This document shows positions 43,214 to 55,599 of a stretch of 56,132 nt of DNA, one piece after another. The stretch comes from Candidatus Kryptoniota bacterium (lineage in GTDB: Bacteria > Bacteroidota > Ignavibacteria > Kryptoniales > JAKASW01). Position 1 is the stretch's first letter, and each line of letters begins with the position of its first letter. Below the pieces are notes generated by a model. That model had not been told where the DNA came from. It saw only the letters and a program-made list of their open reading frames with translations, and did not search any database. The stretch is taken from contig JAHECO010000022.1 in NCBI GenBank assembly GCA_024641705.1, positions 1 to 56,132 of the forward strand, given 5' to 3'. The position numbers were made by a program, and so were the translations under genes.

Positions 43214-43275
<62 letters not shown>

Positions 43276-43286
<11 letters not shown>

Positions 43287-43365
43287 CATAAACTCCCCTC
43301 CCTAAGTCCTTCTCTCAGCAACTTCGATGGAGTTTACCCCGCCGTAGGCGGGGCCCCTGTCCACA
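43276..43365. repeat. Direct repeat of the tRNA-Phe 3' end (att-like)
   Basis: GCCCCTGTCCACA occurs at 43276-43288 (tRNA 3' end) and at 43353-43365, just before the AT-richer island. Such duplications mark integrase attachment sites or tRNA 3'-end remnants. A CCCCGCC/GGCGGGG hairpin precedes the second copy. No integrase gene is visible in the window. Confidence 0.5.
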
Positions 43366-43659
43366 GAAACCTTTTCGAACGCCCGTTTTCCTCTCCGTTG
43401 TTCTCAAGAAATTGAATGCAAGGCAGGATTGTACTGAACGTTTTACTGAACGTTTTGGGAATTGTTCCGGTGGGGTTGTTAGGTGGGAAAAAAGGAAAAG
43501 CCCAAGCGATGAAACTCTCAGGCCGTGCATGCCGTGGAAGCCCGCTCAGGCTTATCGGAAAACTTTCTTCTGAATTTGGCACGTTCGAGGGTTTCATGGT
43601 ACTTCAATGTACTGTCGCAACATGCCCGTGTCAACAACAAAAAAAGCATCCAGTGAGAC
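43366..43659. other. Non-coding stretch beside tRNA-Phe
   Basis: No convincing gene. The only structure is a tandem pair of ACTGAACGTTTT at 43432-43455. An 88-codon plus-strand frame from 43416 lacks coding character and a ribosome-binding site. Confidence 0.4.
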
Positions 43660-44880
43660 TTAACGGTCAAATCTCTCATTAGTCATTTTAACAAACTCCT
43701 CCCAGTCATCAGGATAGAGTGCTCGCAGTATCGGAATGAAATGCTCCCTGAACGCTATCTCGTGTCTTTGGTCTACTTCGGAAACTTCTGTACGCAGGTC
43801 CTTTCGTTCAACAAAGTAGAGAATACCCCTCTCACGCTCGGCAAACACCGGAGAATGCGAAGTGATGAACAATTGACTAAGACCTCCCTGACCATTGCCT
43901 GCAAATTGCTTTAGCATTTCAAATACGGTATGTTGTGCCTCAGGAGACAAATTTTGTTCCAACTCTTCTATGCCGACCATTTTCCCTCGTGAGTTGACAA
44001 CGCTTGCCACAATGTAAATTATTTGCTGCAATCCTGAACCAAGTCTGTCGATAGGGAGTCTCAACCCATCCTTCTTTACCATTATCTCAAGCTCTTCGTT
44101 CATTGTCGCAAAACTAATCTCTCCAAACGAAAAAGGATCAGAATTGAATATCTGCTTGATCCGTTCATAAACAGGGTAGCGATCGCGGTCAAGGGAGAGA
44201 AAGTGAAGCCAACTCTTAAAAGTTGCAGGGGAGAGTTTCACGGTTGACGCTGTGGAATACTTTTCTTCGACTATTCCTCTGCCGCACGATATTACCTTGA
44301 AGCAATCATTCAATGGCTCCAGCAATTGCTCAAAAAGAGCAACTGCCTCAGCCTGATTCAAACCTTTTATTGACGGGAAATAAGATATCTTCCCTGCTTT
44401 GTTTTCAACATAAACGACCCTTTTATTTAATGTCACAGACGATAGGTGCATCAGGCTAATTTGGTCGTCCAGATGTTCGATCCTTCCACTTATCCCAAGA
44501 CTTCCACCTTTTGCATATCCTTTCCGGTCGAGTCGCTTCAGACCCTCCGAAGCAGCTTTGATCTCGTCAGAGTTTAGGATGATCTCCACCGAGAAGTTTA
44601 TGTCTTTCTTATTATTCCCAAATGTGTTATCAACAAACGGTTCCAGTTTACCTGTCCAGAAGTTGCGAGGCTTAAGCACGGGGATCTCTTTTCTGCTTTC
44701 CTGCGACGTTTCTATTACCTCGTGTGGCACCTTCCTCTGAAAAATGCTTTCTAAGATGGCAAGTATGTTTGACTTGCCGGAGTTATTCAGACCATAGAAT
44801 AGAACTGTTGTCCCCAATTTAGGTAAGGTCACATTGACCAGACTGCGGTAATTACTCACATTGAACTTTATCAGTCGCAT
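43660..44880 (-). CDS. OLD/RecF-like AAA ATPase of the putative defence operon
   Basis: The 406-residue protein is an ABC-type ATPase with an internal coiled or lid region. It has MRLIKFNVSNYRSL, Walker A GLNNSGKSN (30-38), signature-like RLGSGLQQI, Walker B MVGIEELEQNLSPE and the switch His ITSHSP. It resembles the ATPase half of OLD/GajA/PtuA proteins but stops soon after the switch, with no TOPRIM nuclease. Such ATPases are frequent in phage defence. It begins 14 bases after the GHKL gene with GGGAG upstream, and is last in the operon. Locally AT-rich. Confidence 0.82.
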   Translation of the reverse strand: MRLIKFNVSNYRSLVNVTLPKLGTTVLFYGLNNSGKSNILAILESIFQRKVPHEVIETSQESRKEIPVLKPRNFWTGKLEPFVDNTFGNNKKDINFSVEIILNSDEIKAASEGLKRLDRKGYAKGGSLGISGRIEHLDDQISLMHLSSVTLNKRVVYVENKAGKISYFPSIKGLNQAEAVALFEQLLEPLNDCFKVISCGRGIVEEKYSTASTVKLSPATFKSWLHFLSLDRDRYPVYERIKQIFNSDPFSFGEISFATMNEELEIMVKKDGLRLPIDRLGSGLQQIIYIVASVVNSRGKMVGIEELEQNLSPEAQHTVFEMLKQFAGNGQGGLSQLFITSHSPVFAERERGILYFVERKDLRTEVSEVDQRHEIAFREHFIPILRALYPDDWEEFVKMTNERFDR

Positions 44881-44894
44881 TGGGATCTCCCTGC

Positions 44895-46451
44895 TTAGGT
44901 AAAATCTTGAAAGTCTTTGTCAATGTACATACTAATGTATCGGTACATCTCTTCAACGGTCTCGCATTCTTCCCTTGCGAGAGCCATGAGGATAAGGATT
45001 TTCTTGAATAGCTCCCCGTACCTCTTTGATTGAAATAGCGGATAGTCCTGATTAATCTCTATGATGCCTGATTTGCGGACTTTACAGGCAGCGTTTTCAC
45101 CACTCTTTGGTTTCCAACTGGAAAAGACAACCTCTCTTTTCTTACCAGCAATAGTAATACTGTCCTCAAGGTCTGGGTGGTCGGCAGAGAAGTGAATAAT
45201 TTTCCTCTCTCTGTCAATCTCTATCGGCTTATTACCACCGATTACCGGGTTTTCAACTCTAAAGCCCCTCGCTTCAAGTTTCTTCATCTCTCGGAGAACG
45301 ACTTCTCTCCTCGAAGCCACCTTGATTTGTTTGCCAGATGCAAGCTGCTGTCTCATTTCCTTGAACGATTCCTCAGTCGCATCCAAATAGGTAGATTGTT
45401 TAGCCAACAACTTGGCAAGTCTCTCTTCCATATCTTGGTATTGCATGCTCCAAATGAAGTCGTCCCGACTCAAAGTGACGGATTCATCCAACCCTTCCAG
45501 TATATGCACTTCGCCAGTCAACCAGTGCAAGTGTGCATACCCTTTTGCCCGCTTAAGATTGAAATCTCTTCTTTCACCGACCCCAACATTGTTCAACCTG
45601 AGCTTGAGTCCTCTCGCTTCTTCAGGACTTACGCCCTTGAAGTCAGTAGCAATGTAGTACTGGAATCTTATTCCGCTAACCTCTTCGGTGCCACTCTCAA
45701 GCACGGTAGTAGCCCCGACGTTTCTAAACAACTTCTTACCATTAAGATTAACTTCCAATGGAAGCGGCTGGTCATATTTCATCATCCCGTTGAGTGGTGA
45801 CTCTGGTGGGTACTCGATCGGTAAATCTTCCTCCAACTCCCACTTAAAGCGGTCCATCGGCTTCCAAGATCGTATGGTATTCCGCTTGGAAGTTTTATCT
45901 GGGTTCGCAAAATACTTTGACACCAGGTCCGTTGGCCTCACGAGTTTCACGCGAGTGAAATGCCTTGTAATCATTTTCGGATCGTGCTGAATTAACCCAG
46001 TGACAGGAATCTGTTCAACGGTCTCAAGCTTCTCCGCCTCCGAGAAGAAACGAGTGGCTGGGATGTTCGCTCTGAAAACGATGTCGGAATTTTCCACTGT
46101 GGAGGTAATCTCAAGGGTCTGACAGAATGGAAAAATTGCCAGAAATCCTACACCAAGCTGTCCGATCCGCCTCCGTCCATATTTCGAAGTATTTCTCTTT
46201 CCCCTCTTTTGGCCAGCTATGGTGAGGTAAAATTTAAACTCCTCAATACTCATCCCGTTGCCGTCATCCTCAACAACGATCTCCGCAGTATCCAAGTTAA
46301 CATCTATCCTGACTGATGTAGCATCGGCATCGTAAGCATTGCTGACCAACTCACGCACCGCGTACGGGAAGCTCCTTTGGTAGGTTGATTTACTGAGCAG
46401 TGGGACGATCCTCTTGTCGACAGTGAGAGAGGTTGTAAATGTCTCAGCCAT
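44895..46451 (-). CDS. GHKL (HSP90/MORC-like) ATPase of the putative defence operon
   Basis: The 518-residue protein has the N-terminal Bergerat ATP fold: N-box RELVSNAYDADA (E34, N38), DDGNGM (62-67) and GQLGVGF (97-103). A middle transducer-like region and a C-terminal part with EINQDYPLFQSKR resemble HSP90/MORC-like ATPases found in restriction and defence loci. No histidine-kinase H-box is present, so it is not a sensor kinase. It overlaps the methyltransferase stop by 8 bases. Its role (ATP-driven clamp or sensor) is inference. Confidence 0.82.
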   Translation of the reverse strand: MAETFTTSLTVDKRIVPLLSKSTYQRSFPYAVRELVSNAYDADATSVRIDVNLDTAEIVVEDDGNGMSIEEFKFYLTIAGQKRGKRNTSKYGRRRIGQLGVGFLAIFPFCQTLEITSTVENSDIVFRANIPATRFFSEAEKLETVEQIPVTGLIQHDPKMITRHFTRVKLVRPTDLVSKYFANPDKTSKRNTIRSWKPMDRFKWELEEDLPIEYPPESPLNGMMKYDQPLPLEVNLNGKKLFRNVGATTVLESGTEEVSGIRFQYYIATDFKGVSPEEARGLKLRLNNVGVGERRDFNLKRAKGYAHLHWLTGEVHILEGLDESVTLSRDDFIWSMQYQDMEERLAKLLAKQSTYLDATEESFKEMRQQLASGKQIKVASRREVVLREMKKLEARGFRVENPVIGGNKPIEIDRERKIIHFSADHPDLEDSITIAGKKREVVFSSWKPKSGENAACKVRKSGIIEINQDYPLFQSKRYGELFKKILILMALAREECETVEEMYRYISMYIDKDFQDFT

Positions 46452-47577
46452 TCTGAGTTCCCTTATAACTAACTCCTCTTTTTACCGCTCTCGGATGACT
46501 AATGATTAAAACTTCTCGATTTCTTAGAGCCTGTCCATTCTGGTGATTCAGAGCATAGCTGTATCGCCGACTGTGCATCTCCGTCTCTCTGCCGTGTCGT
46601 TTGAGAATATCCTTCAAGCCTTCTATCGATGGGTGTCCGAATCTTTTATACGAAATAACGATTATGCTTTGGGGGAAGTTGTCTACAAGTATATCAAGTG
46701 CCTCCTTGTTTCTCTGGGGATCAATCCAAGGGTTCGGATGAGTCGATCTGAACCTTAGATTAGGCGTCTCATAGTCGATCTCTTGTTCCCACAGATCATA
46801 TCTGCTGAGCCCTTCCAAAAAATGATAGCATCTTCTATAGTCTGCAGTCTCGTTTGCGCTATTCCTCGTTAGGTACGGTGGATCCAAATAAACCAGATCG
46901 TATTCCCCAGCCAATTCCAAGGCGTTGTGATTCTTCGCATTGCACTTGTTCGCCCCTTTGAAAACCAGATCATTGGTTTCAGCCACAAAATGTCTAAAAT
47001 AATAACTGAACGAACGATCCCAAGTGCGCTTATTTCCGAATTGTCTCGAGACATTCGCCTCTCTGATGTAGAGGTTTCTCCGATGAAAAAGGTTGAAAGG
47101 ACGCTTTACCAATGCACTCTGAAACAGCGAATAGTAGGCTACGGCCTGCTTATATTTGCCGCTTTTTGTCTCACTGTTCATGTTTGATATGCGAGTTACA
47201 GTCCTATCAAGCCAGGTATTTTCGCGGTTTTTGTAGTATATGTTCCTAAAAGTCTTCTGTATGAATCTCTCTCCAGATGGGCTTTCTCCCCCAAGTATAT
47301 CAGCAATCTCGTCGTTAGACAACGTAACCTCGTTATTCTCAATGATGGCAAGTCCGATCAAGTAATTGAAGTGTAGATAGTCGTTGTAGGTAACAGCCTT
47401 TCCCATCTTCTTCATCAAGTAACTCACCGAACCGGTACCGCCAAAGGCATCCAACGCTGTATGGAACTCAAGGTTTCTCAAGTGTTCATAAATCCAAGGC
47501 AATATCTTTCTCTTGCTGCCTTGATACCGTGTAGAGGGGAAGTCGGTCAGATCTACAGTATCTGCGGGAATACTCAT
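46444..47577 (-). CDS. D12-class adenine-N6 DNA methyltransferase
   Basis: The 377-residue enzyme methylates adenine in DNA. Motif I FGGTGS (45-50) binds SAM, and motif IV is DPPY (232-235) in YDLVYLDPPYLT. SRYQGSKRKILPWI-like TRYQGSKRKILPWI at the N-terminus is typical of the Dam/DpnM group. Recognition sequence is unknown. ATG 47577 is used; a GTG at 47601 would add eight residues. It is the first intact gene of the three-gene operon, preceded at 54 bases by a truncated frame. Confidence 0.9.
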   Translation of the reverse strand: MSIPADTVDLTDFPSTRYQGSKRKILPWIYEHLRNLEFHTALDAFGGTGSVSYLMKKMGKAVTYNDYLHFNYLIGLAIIENNEVTLSNDEIADILGGESPSGERFIQKTFRNIYYKNRENTWLDRTVTRISNMNSETKSGKYKQAVAYYSLFQSALVKRPFNLFHRRNLYIREANVSRQFGNKRTWDRSFSYYFRHFVAETNDLVFKGANKCNAKNHNALELAGEYDLVYLDPPYLTRNSANETADYRRCYHFLEGLSRYDLWEQEIDYETPNLRFRSTHPNPWIDPQRNKEALDILVDNFPQSIIVISYKRFGHPSIEGLKDILKRHGRETEMHSRRYSYALNHQNGQALRNREVLIISHPRAVKRGVSYKGTQNG

Positions 47578-47631
47578 GGTCGGGCCGGCAATTCTACTCA
47601 CCTGAATTGCTTCTACTATTGGGTTATTTCT

Positions 47632-47867: not shown

Positions 47868-48227
47868 TTATAATGGAGCGTTCAAAATCTTTATTCCGAC
47901 TGCCTTTAGCACCCGATTCTTAAGCGACAGCTCGGCCACCAACTGCTTCAGTTGGTCGTTTTCTTTCTTCAAATCAACGACTTCAGTGCTGGTTGCCTCC
48001 CGTTCCGTGTCACCCTGCAGTCTCTTCTTTCCAGCTTCAAGAAAGTCTCTGCTCCACTTGTAGCACACATTCGGGTTTATCCTTTCCCGTCGGCAGAGAT
48101 CTGCTATCCCCGTCTCTCCCTTCAGTCCTTCCAGCACTATCCGGATCTTCTCTTCACTCGAGTATTTCTTCCGGGTCTTTCTCTTGATATCACGTACTAT
48201 ACTTCCAGCGTCTTCTTTCTCTCCCAT
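47868..48227 (-). mobile_element. IS3-family OrfA (transposase HTH subunit), orphan
   Basis: The 119-residue protein has the OrfA pattern: KKYSSEEKIRIVLEGLKGE, a helix-turn-helix (IADLCRRERINPNVCYKWSR) and a C-terminal leucine-zipper-like coil (VVDLKKENDQLKQLVAELSLK). In IS3 elements it binds terminal repeats and is fused to OrfB by frameshifting. No OrfB integrase follows: 47859 downwards encodes something else. So this is a decayed IS or stand-alone remnant. GAAAGGAGAAGG supports ATG 48227. Confidence 0.88.
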
Positions 48228-48318
48228 GGTCCTTCTCCTTTCTCGCCTAATCCACTCAATTCCATCTCCTATTTTTATTCCCTTTTCTGTATGGCAGGCT
48301 TTGAAGTCTAACATCGAC

Positions 48319-48353
48319 AAAAAAAGTCCCGCCACGATCGCTCATGACGGGAC
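48319..48353 (-). terminator. Strong minus-strand hairpin terminator, no obvious gene before it
   Basis: On the minus strand GTCCCGTCATGA, tetraloop GCGA, TCGTGGCGGGAC form a 12-pair stem (with G-U pairs) followed by TTTTTTT. No convincing minus-strand gene lies above it (48360-48898), so it may end a small RNA or a lost gene. Confidence 0.65.
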
Positions 48354-52952: not shown

Positions 52953-53110
52953 TCACCGCGGCCCGTAGACATAGAAATCTCCGCCAGCGGTCATAACGAA
53001 TGCGAACGGAATCGCTGCCGTAAACGGTTTGGGAACACTGTCCTCAATCAAGGGTGAGAAATGCCATTTCATAACAGCATCTATCGCAGGCTTGTTGAAT
53101 ATCGGATGAC
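52953..53110 (-). pseudogene. TonB C-terminal domain fragment
   Basis: In the frame one base off the HsdM piece, the sequence reads HPIFNKPAIDAVMKWHFSP, LIEDSVPKPFTAAIPFAFVM and ends FYVYGPR-stop. This matches the TonB C-terminal fold (xPALDAAxxWRFxPAxxxGxPV). No start or N-terminal membrane anchor exists upstream; instead an HsdM N-terminus abuts near 53100. It is a remnant of a TonB-like protein. The rest of the 52710-53080 gap shows no gene. Confidence 0.7.
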
Positions 53111-53482
53111 CGCTATGGCCCGCAGATAAGTAGTGAGTTCTTGTCCAAGCTTCTCCAAGTACTTGTCTTCCGGTTTGCGTTTCACGTCATTGCCCGTTCG
53201 AATCACCGACCATATTGAGTCTTCGGGGTTATTGGGTTCAAAGGGCATAAAGAACCGGACGAGTTTCTTATCCCGTTTCGCTAGCTTGAATGCTTTGGCG
53301 CGCCCACCGACTTCTTTGGCTATTCGGTTGATCTCATCATCGAACACATCGCACAAGCGCTTGGTGAACACTAATGGCAGGATGAAGTCCTTGTACTTAC
53401 CTGCTTCCTTCGCGCCCCTGATAGAGCACGCCGCGTCCCAGAGCCATTGCTCAAGGGATTTATCTCCATTGCCGTTTTTCAT
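53081..53482 (-). pseudogene. Truncated type I restriction methylase HsdM, N-terminal domain only
   Basis: The 133-codon frame encodes the HsdM N-terminal helical domain: SLEQWLWDAACSIRGAKEAG, YKDFILPLVFTKRLCDVFDD. About 120 residues match the family, then it departs at KLGQELTTYLRA and ends at IRYSTSLR. Full HsdM is over 450 residues, with its methylase motifs further on, so this is a dead fragment joined to the TonB remnant. No HsdR or HsdS is in the window. Confidence 0.85.
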
Positions 53483-53922
53483 TTGACCCTTTTGAAGTTG
53501 GATAATTAATCGAAGTCTATCAGAAGAGGGCGGCTTTTTCAAGTTTGGATAGTGAATGCGCACAAGCAGGTCTATACATTCCCCTGTGCAAGCCAAATAT
53601 TATCGGGTGGAAATACGGTAGGAACGAGAAAAGCCTTCTGCCAGATGAACAGGAGAGCCGGTAAAAAGAGATGTCGGCAGCCCCCACCCCCTGCCAATGG
53701 GCCATCTTCGTTTCAGGATTATGAGGACTCTCTATCTAGAATAGGCCGGCAAAAGACAGACGGTGTACAGAGCGATTGTAAACCAACTCTCTGTGCCATG
53801 AGAGGCTGAAAGTCACCGGATAAAGAATCAGGACGCCTTTGTTGCGGAGCCTTCGCGGGAGTTGATCTATGGAAGTAAAACAGCATGCCTTTCCCTCCCT
53901 GGGTTCCCCCTTCCGATTATGG
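53483..53922. other. Non-coding stretch between the HsdM fragment and the Fic repeats
   Basis: About 440 bases with no convincing gene; frames on either strand lack domains and ribosome-binding sites. Confidence 0.4.
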
Positions 53923-54139
53923 TGGAAAATTTTCGGAAATATCGGCCTTTTGGTGGAAAGAATCTTTGGTTCTCCTCTAAATCCGCGCCTATCCTGGAAA
54001 ATTCTCCGGCAGATAGACGTGACAGGCAAACCCCCACCCAAGACGACCCAAGTATAGTAGAAAATATTTTGACAATTTGCCTTTATCGTGGAAAATCTTT
54101 ATAATTTAGCCAACAAACATCAACTATTGTGGAAAAAAT
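53923..54139 (+). promoter_or_regulatory. Six helically phased TGGAAAAT direct repeats before the Fic gene
   Basis: Copies of TnGTGGAAAATnTT-like sites start at 53923, 53954, 53995, 54058 (TAGAAAAT), 54089 and 54130 (TGGAAAAAAT). The distances are 31, 41, 63, 31 and 41 bases, near 3, 4, 6, 3 and 4 turns of B-DNA, so all face one side. The last copy ends 5 bases before the Fic ATG, covering the ribosome-binding region. This looks like an operator array, probably for the AbiEi-like N-terminus of the Fic protein. Confidence 0.65.
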
Positions 54140-54144
54140 TCAGA

Positions 54145-55599
54145 ATGAGCGAATTGATCTTCGCATCGTCGGATTCTCGTGAGGCATATAGAATATCCAA
54201 GATGCTCAAAGAGAAGAAAATCCGAAAAATAGCATCACGGATATATTCTACCAACTTCGAAGAAGCTCCGAAGGAAATCATAAGTAGGAACATTCTGGAG
54301 ATTCTTGGACGACTCTACCCTGGCGCGGTCCTAAGTCATCGTTCCGCATTCGAATTCAAGCCAACCTCGACCAATCAGATCTTTGTGACGCACTCCTACA
54401 CGAGGAAAATAAAGCTGCCAGGCCTCACCATAAACTTTCTAAGGGGCAAGGGACCCGTTCAAGGCGACAACAAGATGTTCGGTGAGCTCTACGTCTCGAG
54501 CAGAGAAAGAGCATTCCTCGAGAATTTGCAGATAACAAAAAAAGCCGGACCAAACTCAAAGGCGCTGAGTCTTCCTGAGATCGAAGAAAAATTGGACGAC
54601 ATAGCCAGAGTCCATGGTGAGGAAGGCCTGAATCGGTTGCGAGACTCGGCGAGAAAGCTGTCGAGGACCCTGGGGATGAAAGCGGAATTCGAACGGCTCA
54701 ATAAAATCACTGGCGCGTTACTTTCGACGAAACCGTCCAACATCTTAAAATCACCCCTGGCAATCTCTCGTGCCACCGGACTTCCGTTCGACAGACATCG
54801 GATCGAAGTTTTCGAGATTCTTTTCAACTACCTCCACAACAAAGAATTCCCAACGATCCCGGAGAATAACCTTTCGCTCAAGTCCTTTAGAAATTTTGCA
54901 TTCTTCGAAGCGTATTTTTCCAACTACATAGAAGGAACCATCTTCGAAGTATCTGAAGCGAAACAGATTGTGGATACCGGGCAACCACTTGAGGCTCGTG
55001 GAGAAGACTCTCATGACATCCTTGGCACCTATCAGATCGTCTCGGATAGGACCGAGATGAGCAAAATCCCATCGAACGCCGACGAGTTCATGAATCTTCT
55101 CGGATCGCGACATGCGGTTCTGCTGTCGGCACGTACATCTAAACTTCCTGGGCAGTTCAAGGAGAAGAATAACCGCGCGGGTAATACCCTATTCGTTGAT
55201 TACAAGCTCGTGCGAGGGACATTGAAGCGCGGATTTGAGTATTACAGTGTGCTGAAGAGTCCGTTTACCCGAGCCGCCTATATGAAGTTCATGATCAGTG
55301 AAGTGCATCCATTCACTGACGGCAACGGGAGGATGGCACGAGTGATGATGAATGCCGAGCTTGTCAACTCAAAAGAGACCAAGATAATCATCCCGACTGT
55401 ATTCAGGGACGACTACTTGCTGACGCTGAAGAAACTTACGAACCAGAAAGACCCTGCGCCCTATGTCGAAATGCTGTCCAAAACACGGCAGTTCAGCGCT
55501 AGGCTCCACTTCGAAGCGTACGAAGACCTTTATAAATATCTCGAAAGCCATAACGCCTTCCGCGAAGCCGACGAAGGCCGGCACCTGATAGTAGATTAG
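54145..55599 (+). CDS. Fic-domain protein with N-terminal AbiEi-like DNA-binding region
   Basis: The 484-residue protein has an N-terminal AbiEi-like region (about 1-130: winged-helix-like YRISKMLKEKKIRKIASRIY, then SHRSAFEFKPTSTNQIFV), a middle DUF4172-type segment, the inhibitory motif SNYIEG (S259-G264, S/T-x3-E-G), and the Fic core HPFTDGNGRMAR (388-399) with catalytic His388. Fic enzymes transfer AMP or related groups to target proteins. Combining an antitoxin-type DNA binder and a self-inhibited Fic in one chain suggests a one-gene toxin-antitoxin or defence unit. ATG 54145 is preferred to GTG 54088, which lies within the repeat array. Confidence 0.88.
   Translation: MSELIFASSDSREAYRISKMLKEKKIRKIASRIYSTNFEEAPKEIISRNILEILGRLYPGAVLSHRSAFEFKPTSTNQIFVTHSYTRKIKLPGLTINFLRGKGPVQGDNKMFGELYVSSRERAFLENLQITKKAGPNSKALSLPEIEEKLDDIARVHGEEGLNRLRDSARKLSRTLGMKAEFERLNKITGALLSTKPSNILKSPLAISRATGLPFDRHRIEVFEILFNYLHNKEFPTIPENNLSLKSFRNFAFFEAYFSNYIEGTIFEVSEAKQIVDTGQPLEARGEDSHDILGTYQIVSDRTEMSKIPSNADEFMNLLGSRHAVLLSARTSKLPGQFKEKNNRAGNTLFVDYKLVRGTLKRGFEYYSVLKSPFTRAAYMKFMISEVHPFTDGNGRMARVMMNAELVNSKETKIIIPTVFRDDYLLTLKKLTNQKDPAPYVEMLSKTRQFSARLHFEAYEDLYKYLESHNAFREADEGRHLIVD

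Follow-up and report, generated by a model that had tools for sequence, protein, structure and literature searches.

A conserved cassette of a D12 adenine methyltransferase, a GHKL ATPase and an AriA/OLD-type ATPase with no recognisable nuclease

The window analysed here is the whole of a 56,132-nucleotide stretch from a Candidatus Kryptoniota bacterium (contig JAHECO010000022.1, assembly GCA_024641705.1). Three adjoining genes on its minus strand (47601-43660), referred to below as the trio, encode a D12 adenine methyltransferase (MT), a GHKL/S5 ATPase and an ABC ATPase of the AriA/OLD type (Table 1). The MT and GHKL genes overlap by 8 bases, and a 14-base gap separates the GHKL gene from that of the ABC ATPase. 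An earlier model-made interpretation of the locus, here called the sequence-only reading, had proposed a three-gene operon that is AT-richer than its flanks. The profile matches and the gene spacing bear out the operon, and its GC content is 44.8%, against a mean of 54.1% (standard deviation 1.4%, minimum 49.0%) for 215 overlapping windows of equal length. Promoter and terminator scans gave matches at chance level only.

Table 1. Positions of the trio genes and of neighbouring features in the window.
Feature	Position	Strand	Evidence or remark
D12-class N6-adenine DNA methyltransferase (MT)	46444..47601	-	Pfam MethyltransfD12 6.8e-20
GHKL/S5 ATPase, paraMORC type, 518 aa	44895..46451	-	HATPase_c_3 3.2e-19
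GHKL protein C-terminal domain, residues 380-518	44895..45314	-	No significant Pfam match; E465 invariant
AriA/OLD-type ABC ATPase, 406 aa	43660..44880	-	AAA_15 3.5e-22, AAA_21 3.8e-19
tRNA-Phe (gaa)	43214..43287	+	Linked throughout the genus to the S66 peptidase gene; DNA beyond it varies
tRNA 3'-end direct repeat	43276..43370 (43276-43293 and 43353-43370)	+	17 of 18 positions identical, 77 bases apart
IS3-type orfA, upstream of the MT gene	47868..48335	-	HTH_Tnp_1 7.4e-13; orfB open reading frame absent before the MT gene

The motifs expected of each protein family are intact. The MT has motif I (ALDAFGGTG) and a DPPY motif at residues 240-243, and is 46-57% identical to its orthologues in other trio loci. 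It is 385 residues long if read from the GTG at 47601 and 377 if read from the ATG at 47577, 24 bases downstream, where the sequence-only reading had placed its boundary. The GHKL protein retains the N-box (E34/N38), G1 (DDGNGM) and G2 (GQLGVG) motifs for ATP; its layout comprises an S5-like transducer at about residues 150-330, a long helix at 336-371 and a C-terminal domain at 398-518 with no recognised family. In the ABC ATPase the Walker A (GLNNSGKS), signature (GSGLQQ), Walker B (VGIEELE) and H-loop (SHS) motifs are all present.

Conservation of the trio and co-evolution of its ATPases

Six further loci from the Bacteroidota, Verrucomicrobia and Chloroflexota encode the MT, GHKL protein and ABC ATPase in identical order, at 25-60% identity. 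The sequence-only reading, which would have failed had the genes never been found together elsewhere, thus withstood its own neighbourhood check. Over six complete loci and a frameshifted one, the genes are spaced tightly, at -8 to +34 bases. Full-length GHKL orthologues are encoded in three genomes of the same class (G345, G257 and G424) and in genomes of the Verrucomicrobiia, Chloroflexi and Dehalococcoidia, all of them in a trio. Across the class (391 genomes), every one of the four full-length GHKL orthologues belongs to a trio, as do four of the five strong ABC ATPase orthologues; the fifth is at the start of a contig. On a Flavobacteriaceae contig the MT gene is followed by the GHKL gene, inside which the contig ends. 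Co-location is far beyond chance, and the trio is a real conserved cassette.

The cassette is also rare and patchily distributed. Strong-threshold searches of sampled genomes related to the Chloroflexi (301), Verrucomicrobiia (289) and Woesearchaeota (279) matches gave a full-length match in essentially the query genome alone. No fourth gene recurs, and the neighbourhoods differ at every trio locus scanned. A second trio in the genus (G257) is 34-46% identical to that of the window and has another context, so the two look like independent acquisitions. In viral contigs we found no close relative of the GHKL protein or MT and no match to the ABC ATPase profile; three relatives of the MT only were present, without the ATPases. 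Phage and plasmid records contained the GHKL domain alone, or else MTs whose neighbours were type II endonucleases or genes of unknown kind, and the ABC ATPase had no plasmid match. Members of the MT family are paired with AlwI- and DpnII-type endonucleases on plasmids. In two Rhizobium plasmid operons (L038 5944-10356 and L039 5926-10323) a relative of the MT has unusual neighbours: one protein resembles beta-RFAP synthase and the other is annotated as a non-canonical purine NTP pyrophosphatase. A sequence search of the PDB with the MT profile returned no match.

Identity matrices and trees of the three proteins were compared across six intact trio loci. The GHKL and ABC ATPase matrices are strongly correlated (Mantel r 0.87, 2 of 720 permutations), while the correlation of the MT and GHKL matrices is only 0.40 (47 of 720 permutations). 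In approximately unbiased (AU) tests the GHKL data accept the ABC ATPase tree (AU 0.24) and the ABC ATPase data accept the GHKL tree (AU 0.31). The MT data reject both of these trees and both ATPases reject the MT tree (AU p at most 1.4e-6). As the matrices and trees of the two ATPases agree and the MT tree is discordant, the ATPases form a co-evolving module that moves as a pair, with the MT exchanged. A central block of the MT (residues 146-210, KRPFNLFHR..FGNK) has a mean identity of 59%, and two segments (91-145 and 273-310) vary, at 24-32% identity. This can be read in two ways: the MTs of the trio loci may all have a common target, as the conserved central block would suggest, or the ATPase pair may take its specificity from the MT, by analogy with type III or BREX-like logic. 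Because of the two variable segments, the target of the MT may also have changed among trio loci.

Might the three genes be unrelated neighbours, or the remnant of a decayed system? The MT and ABC ATPase genes of the Chloroflexi OLB14 copy are frameshifted or truncated, and an insertion-sequence remnant lies upstream of the operon in the window, as would suit decay. Six intact loci with the same order and intact motifs, together with congruent ATPase trees, already contradict this explanation and make it extremely improbable.

Relation to known systems and the search for a nuclease

The sequence-only reading had found no nameable system with this composition. This stands in so far as the trio fits none of the models in PADLOC-DB 2023, but relatives do exist among MORC/paraMORC operons and OLD-type ATPases. 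The best single-gene matches in PADLOC are to AriA (9e-26), to a generic type II MT and to the GHKL domain only of REase_II. GHKL proteins are found with DNA methylases in MORC/paraMORC operons that resemble restriction-modification (RM) systems and include helicases and nucleases, for which DNA looping has been proposed (Iyer, Abhiman and Aravind 2008, PMC2292703). In RM-like and BREX contexts, OLD-type ABC ATPases have been described together with a variety of nucleases (PMC12839542). Like the trio, the MORC/paraMORC operons place a GHKL plus S5 ATPase beside a DNA methylase and are patchy and horizontally spread. Most of them, however, also have a superfamily II helicase and/or a nuclease (restriction endonuclease (REase), HNH or Vsr) and their methylases are cytosine methylases, whereas the trio has a D12 adenine MT and, as its third member, an OLD/AriA-type ABC ATPase, with neither helicase nor nuclease. 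The literal MORC-specific S5 motif (GhXhhpXXRhl) was absent from 13 of 13 GHKL proteins scanned, so by its sequence the GHKL protein is classed as paraMORC-type and not as MORC. The novelty of the trio lies in how its genes are combined and in the lack of a visible nuclease; its relatives were already known from RM-like operons. Though uncatalogued in PADLOC 2023, the gene set has possibly been listed earlier elsewhere in the literature.

Similarity to AriA raises the alternative of abortive infection like that of PARIS, with the ABC ATPase sensing an anti-restriction protein or infection and triggering a toxic step, and the GHKL protein as effector or scaffold. In PADLOC the ABC ATPase is closest to AriA, which it matches over its whole length (residues 1-346 on positions 1-372 of the 373-position model, 9e-26; 1.3e-29 in L077). 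Yet the same AAA_15 similarity is common to mad3, AbiLi, GajA, Old and others, no AriB or Toprim gene was found in the loci examined, and PARIS needs neither the methylase nor the GHKL partner that the trio has in addition. We regard this alternative as quite improbable.

The trio likewise differs from other systems with related components. MADS (mad1-mad8) is also methylation-associated and the ABC ATPase resembles mad3 (PADLOC 3.9e-18), but it scores 28.6 bits against an NCBIfam MAD3 cut-off of 420; the MT matches mad2 weakly over 57 residues, and the other mad genes are absent from the trio, which has three genes only. The ABC protein has the SMC/Rad50-like ABC ATPase fold in common with Septu PtuAB, Gabija GajAB and the OLD nucleases. 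Their ATPases are partnered with HNH or Toprim nucleases, neither of which was found in the trio. The ABC protein has no Toprim match and, with about 60 residues after its H-loop, leaves too little room for one; the operon and scanned neighbours contain no HNH, AriB or Toprim gene. The sequence-only reading had also set the locus apart from Gabija, Septu and PARIS. VcSduA, a GHKL-domain Shedu protein (PMC12137116), has an N-terminal GHKL ATPase that acts in phage defence, like that of the trio in domain type, but carries a C-terminal DUF4263 PD-(D/E)xK nuclease and has no methylase partner. No DUF4263 match and no conserved nuclease triad were found in the GHKL protein of the trio.

Related GHKL proteins, homologous over residues 3-353 (hhalign 4e-46), are encoded in operons where an uncharacterised protein X takes the place of the ABC ATPase as partner. 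These are DCM-GHKL-X operons, whose methylase is a cytosine methylase (L084 2437-6834, L085 563-5056 and L086 6077-10471, with a gene that is Vsr-like by its sequence also in L084) and archaeal GHKL-X-Y-D12 operons from Thorarchaeota, Aenigmatarchaeota and Woesearchaeota (L080 2135-3615, L082 7562-9068 and L083 9659-11179). The D12 methylase of the archaeal operons is of the same family as the trio MT. The archaeal X protein is related to the bacterial one (E 1.4e-7); an assignment of X to Response_reg_2 (PMC8011034) was dropped, X having no Pfam match. An LS-x3-H stretch is invariant in archaeal Y, also an uncharacterised protein, and since its DUF5677 match is below threshold (0.024) we do not claim it as a HEPN RNase.

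The main rival explanation is a classical RM system, in which a divergent nuclease site in the GHKL or ABC protein, most likely in the GHKL C-terminal domain, would cut unmethylated sites. The MT, with its D12 profile match and intact FGGTG and DPPY motifs, could serve a type II RM system, and its relatives are paired with type II endonucleases. GHKL proteins carry annotations as restriction enzymes of type II (BbrUII/HgiDII; REase_II in PADLOC), and paraMORC3 proteins and VcSduA have a C-terminal nuclease of the REase fold (PMC2292703, PMC12137116). The GHKL protein matches the BbrUII/HgiDII family (1.5e-21), but over residues 29-131 only, so that the match ends at the GHKL domain. We found no nuclease family in the three proteins with Pfam, NCBIfam or PADLOC, as the sequence-only reading had remarked, and no significant Pfam match when the GHKL C-terminal domain (residues 380-518) was searched alone. 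Across seven trio loci E465 is the sole invariant charged residue of that domain, too few for a PD-(D/E)xK, HNH or Toprim site. Invariant charged residues in the ABC protein comprise those in its ATPase motifs and also R12, R201, K222 and E265; the part beyond the H-loop has none. A search of a fold library gave no nuclease-specific match for either ATPase model, which is not proof of absence. A DUF559 nuclease gene near L075 was not counted as a component, being separated from the trio by another gene and absent at the other loci. These results leave a cognate endonuclease without a recognised domain while allowing a cryptic site, and we consider the classical RM explanation rather unlikely.

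Insertion site and surroundings

According to the sequence-only reading the genes sit directly after a tRNA with a duplicated 3' end. A tRNA-Phe does lie 372 bases from the 3' end of the operon, and 18 nucleotides of its end are repeated (a 13-mer of the repeat has 2 matches against 0.03 expected). However, both copies are on the tRNA side, so that the operon is not bracketed, and its genes point towards the tRNA. The repeat is possibly an att scar, but it is no evidence for the boundaries of an element, which for this reason are not assigned.

The S66 peptidase gene and tRNA-Phe are paired in all nine other genomes of the genus that could be read on that side, and the DNA after the tRNA varies among most of them. 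In G252 and G256 a tyrosine recombinase (Pfam Phage_integrase) is encoded directly after tRNA-Phe (L211 3147-4202 and L210 9053-10288), and G253 has an open reading frame resembling it in the same place. The variable DNA and the recombinases make this tRNA-Phe site a genus-wide integration hotspot. No clean empty site was found among the relatives because the right flank is not conserved: glutamate dehydrogenase does not adjoin tRNA-Phe in them.

Upstream of the MT gene, the IS3-type orfA is an insertion-sequence remnant; a 299-base copy, 78% identical, lies elsewhere in the genome. Farther to the right are an open reading frame with the HsdM N-terminal domain only (8.7e-12; 53081-53596, minus strand), probably a type I modification subunit in truncated form, and, near the contig end, a 503-residue protein whose C-terminal domain is Fic/DOC (1.5e-11; 54088-55599, plus strand). 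Together they suggest a defence- or toxin-rich stretch on the right.

Predicted folds and a possible exclusion mechanism

The GHKL model (predicted local distance difference test score (pLDDT) 76) matches MORC3 and MORC2 over residues 10-365 with Z scores of 19-20 and root-mean-square deviations (rmsd) of 4.2-4.8. Its top match is MORC3 (Z 20.1 over 297 residues, rmsd 4.2), and matches to Hsp90, MutL and Topo VI are lower (Z 16-18). The ABC ATPase model (pLDDT 75) matches SMC3, Rad50 and PtuA (Z 17-19). Proteins with MORC-like and SMC/Rad50-like folds act as ATP-driven DNA clamps, but a predicted likeness of fold to MORC or SMC does not show function.

The conserved cassette, its intact motifs, the co-evolution of the ATPases, the exchange of the MT and the predicted folds are directly supported. 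On balance they favour a mobile, methylation-guarded and restriction-like module for DNA exclusion, which we think probable with some reserve. The rare, patchy distribution, the hotspot position and the low GC content count in its favour too, as do the relatives of the GHKL protein beside DCM methylases and the match of the GHKL domain to BbrUII/HgiDII. In such a module the D12 MT would put N6-methyladenine on the host copies of its target sequence, marking them as self. The GHKL protein, as a MORC/MutL-like clamp, and the ABC ATPase, SMC/Rad50-head-like and closest to AriA/OLD, would form one restriction complex that senses and acts on DNA without the mark. The ATPase pair would hold the position of a restriction enzyme because the MT family is elsewhere paired with type II endonucleases. 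Since no nuclease is recognisable in either ATPase or in a constant neighbour, the last step would most likely be non-nucleolytic: the two ATPases would use ATP to clamp, loop or compact unmodified DNA and so block its replication or transcription, and a host nuclease could possibly finish the job. Given a restriction-like module, we put a nuclease-free last step at somewhat below an even chance. The full proposal, a nuclease-free restriction system in which a MORC-like clamp and an SMC-head-like ATPase detect that N6-methyladenine is missing and, driven by ATP, clamp invading DNA so that it is silenced or immobilised, is accordingly tentative and, taken whole, rather doubtful.

Several points weigh against a restriction-like exclusion module. 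The defence role is drawn by analogy from family context, a defence island is not evident around most relatives, and the trio is absent from PADLOC, perhaps because it has never been tested. The tree test is small (six rows), though the rejection is strong. The absence of a nuclease is judged from sequence and from conservation in six to seven loci, an approach that could overlook a divergent active site, and confidence in the structural models is moderate.

The same folds, the lack of a recognised nuclease and the hotspot position would also suit a methylation-linked regulatory or chromosome-organising operon, MORC and SMC folds being DNA-organising engines. Such an operon might silence integrated foreign DNA or stabilise a mobile island by addiction. 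Against this, the trio occurs sporadically in several phyla and outside any core-genome context, which is more in keeping with a defence or selfish module than with host regulation, and exchange of the methylase is expected from an arms race of the restriction type; we judge the regulatory explanation improbable.

If the trio does exclude DNA without cutting it, this would be restriction by mechanical silencing, a bacterial parallel to the methylation-guided MORC silencing of eukaryotes and a simple three-gene model for the action of MORC-type ATPases on DNA. Even with a hidden nuclease, the MORC-like clamp and the SMC-like ATPase make up one co-evolving module with an exchangeable MT, a pairing not catalogued in PADLOC 2023.

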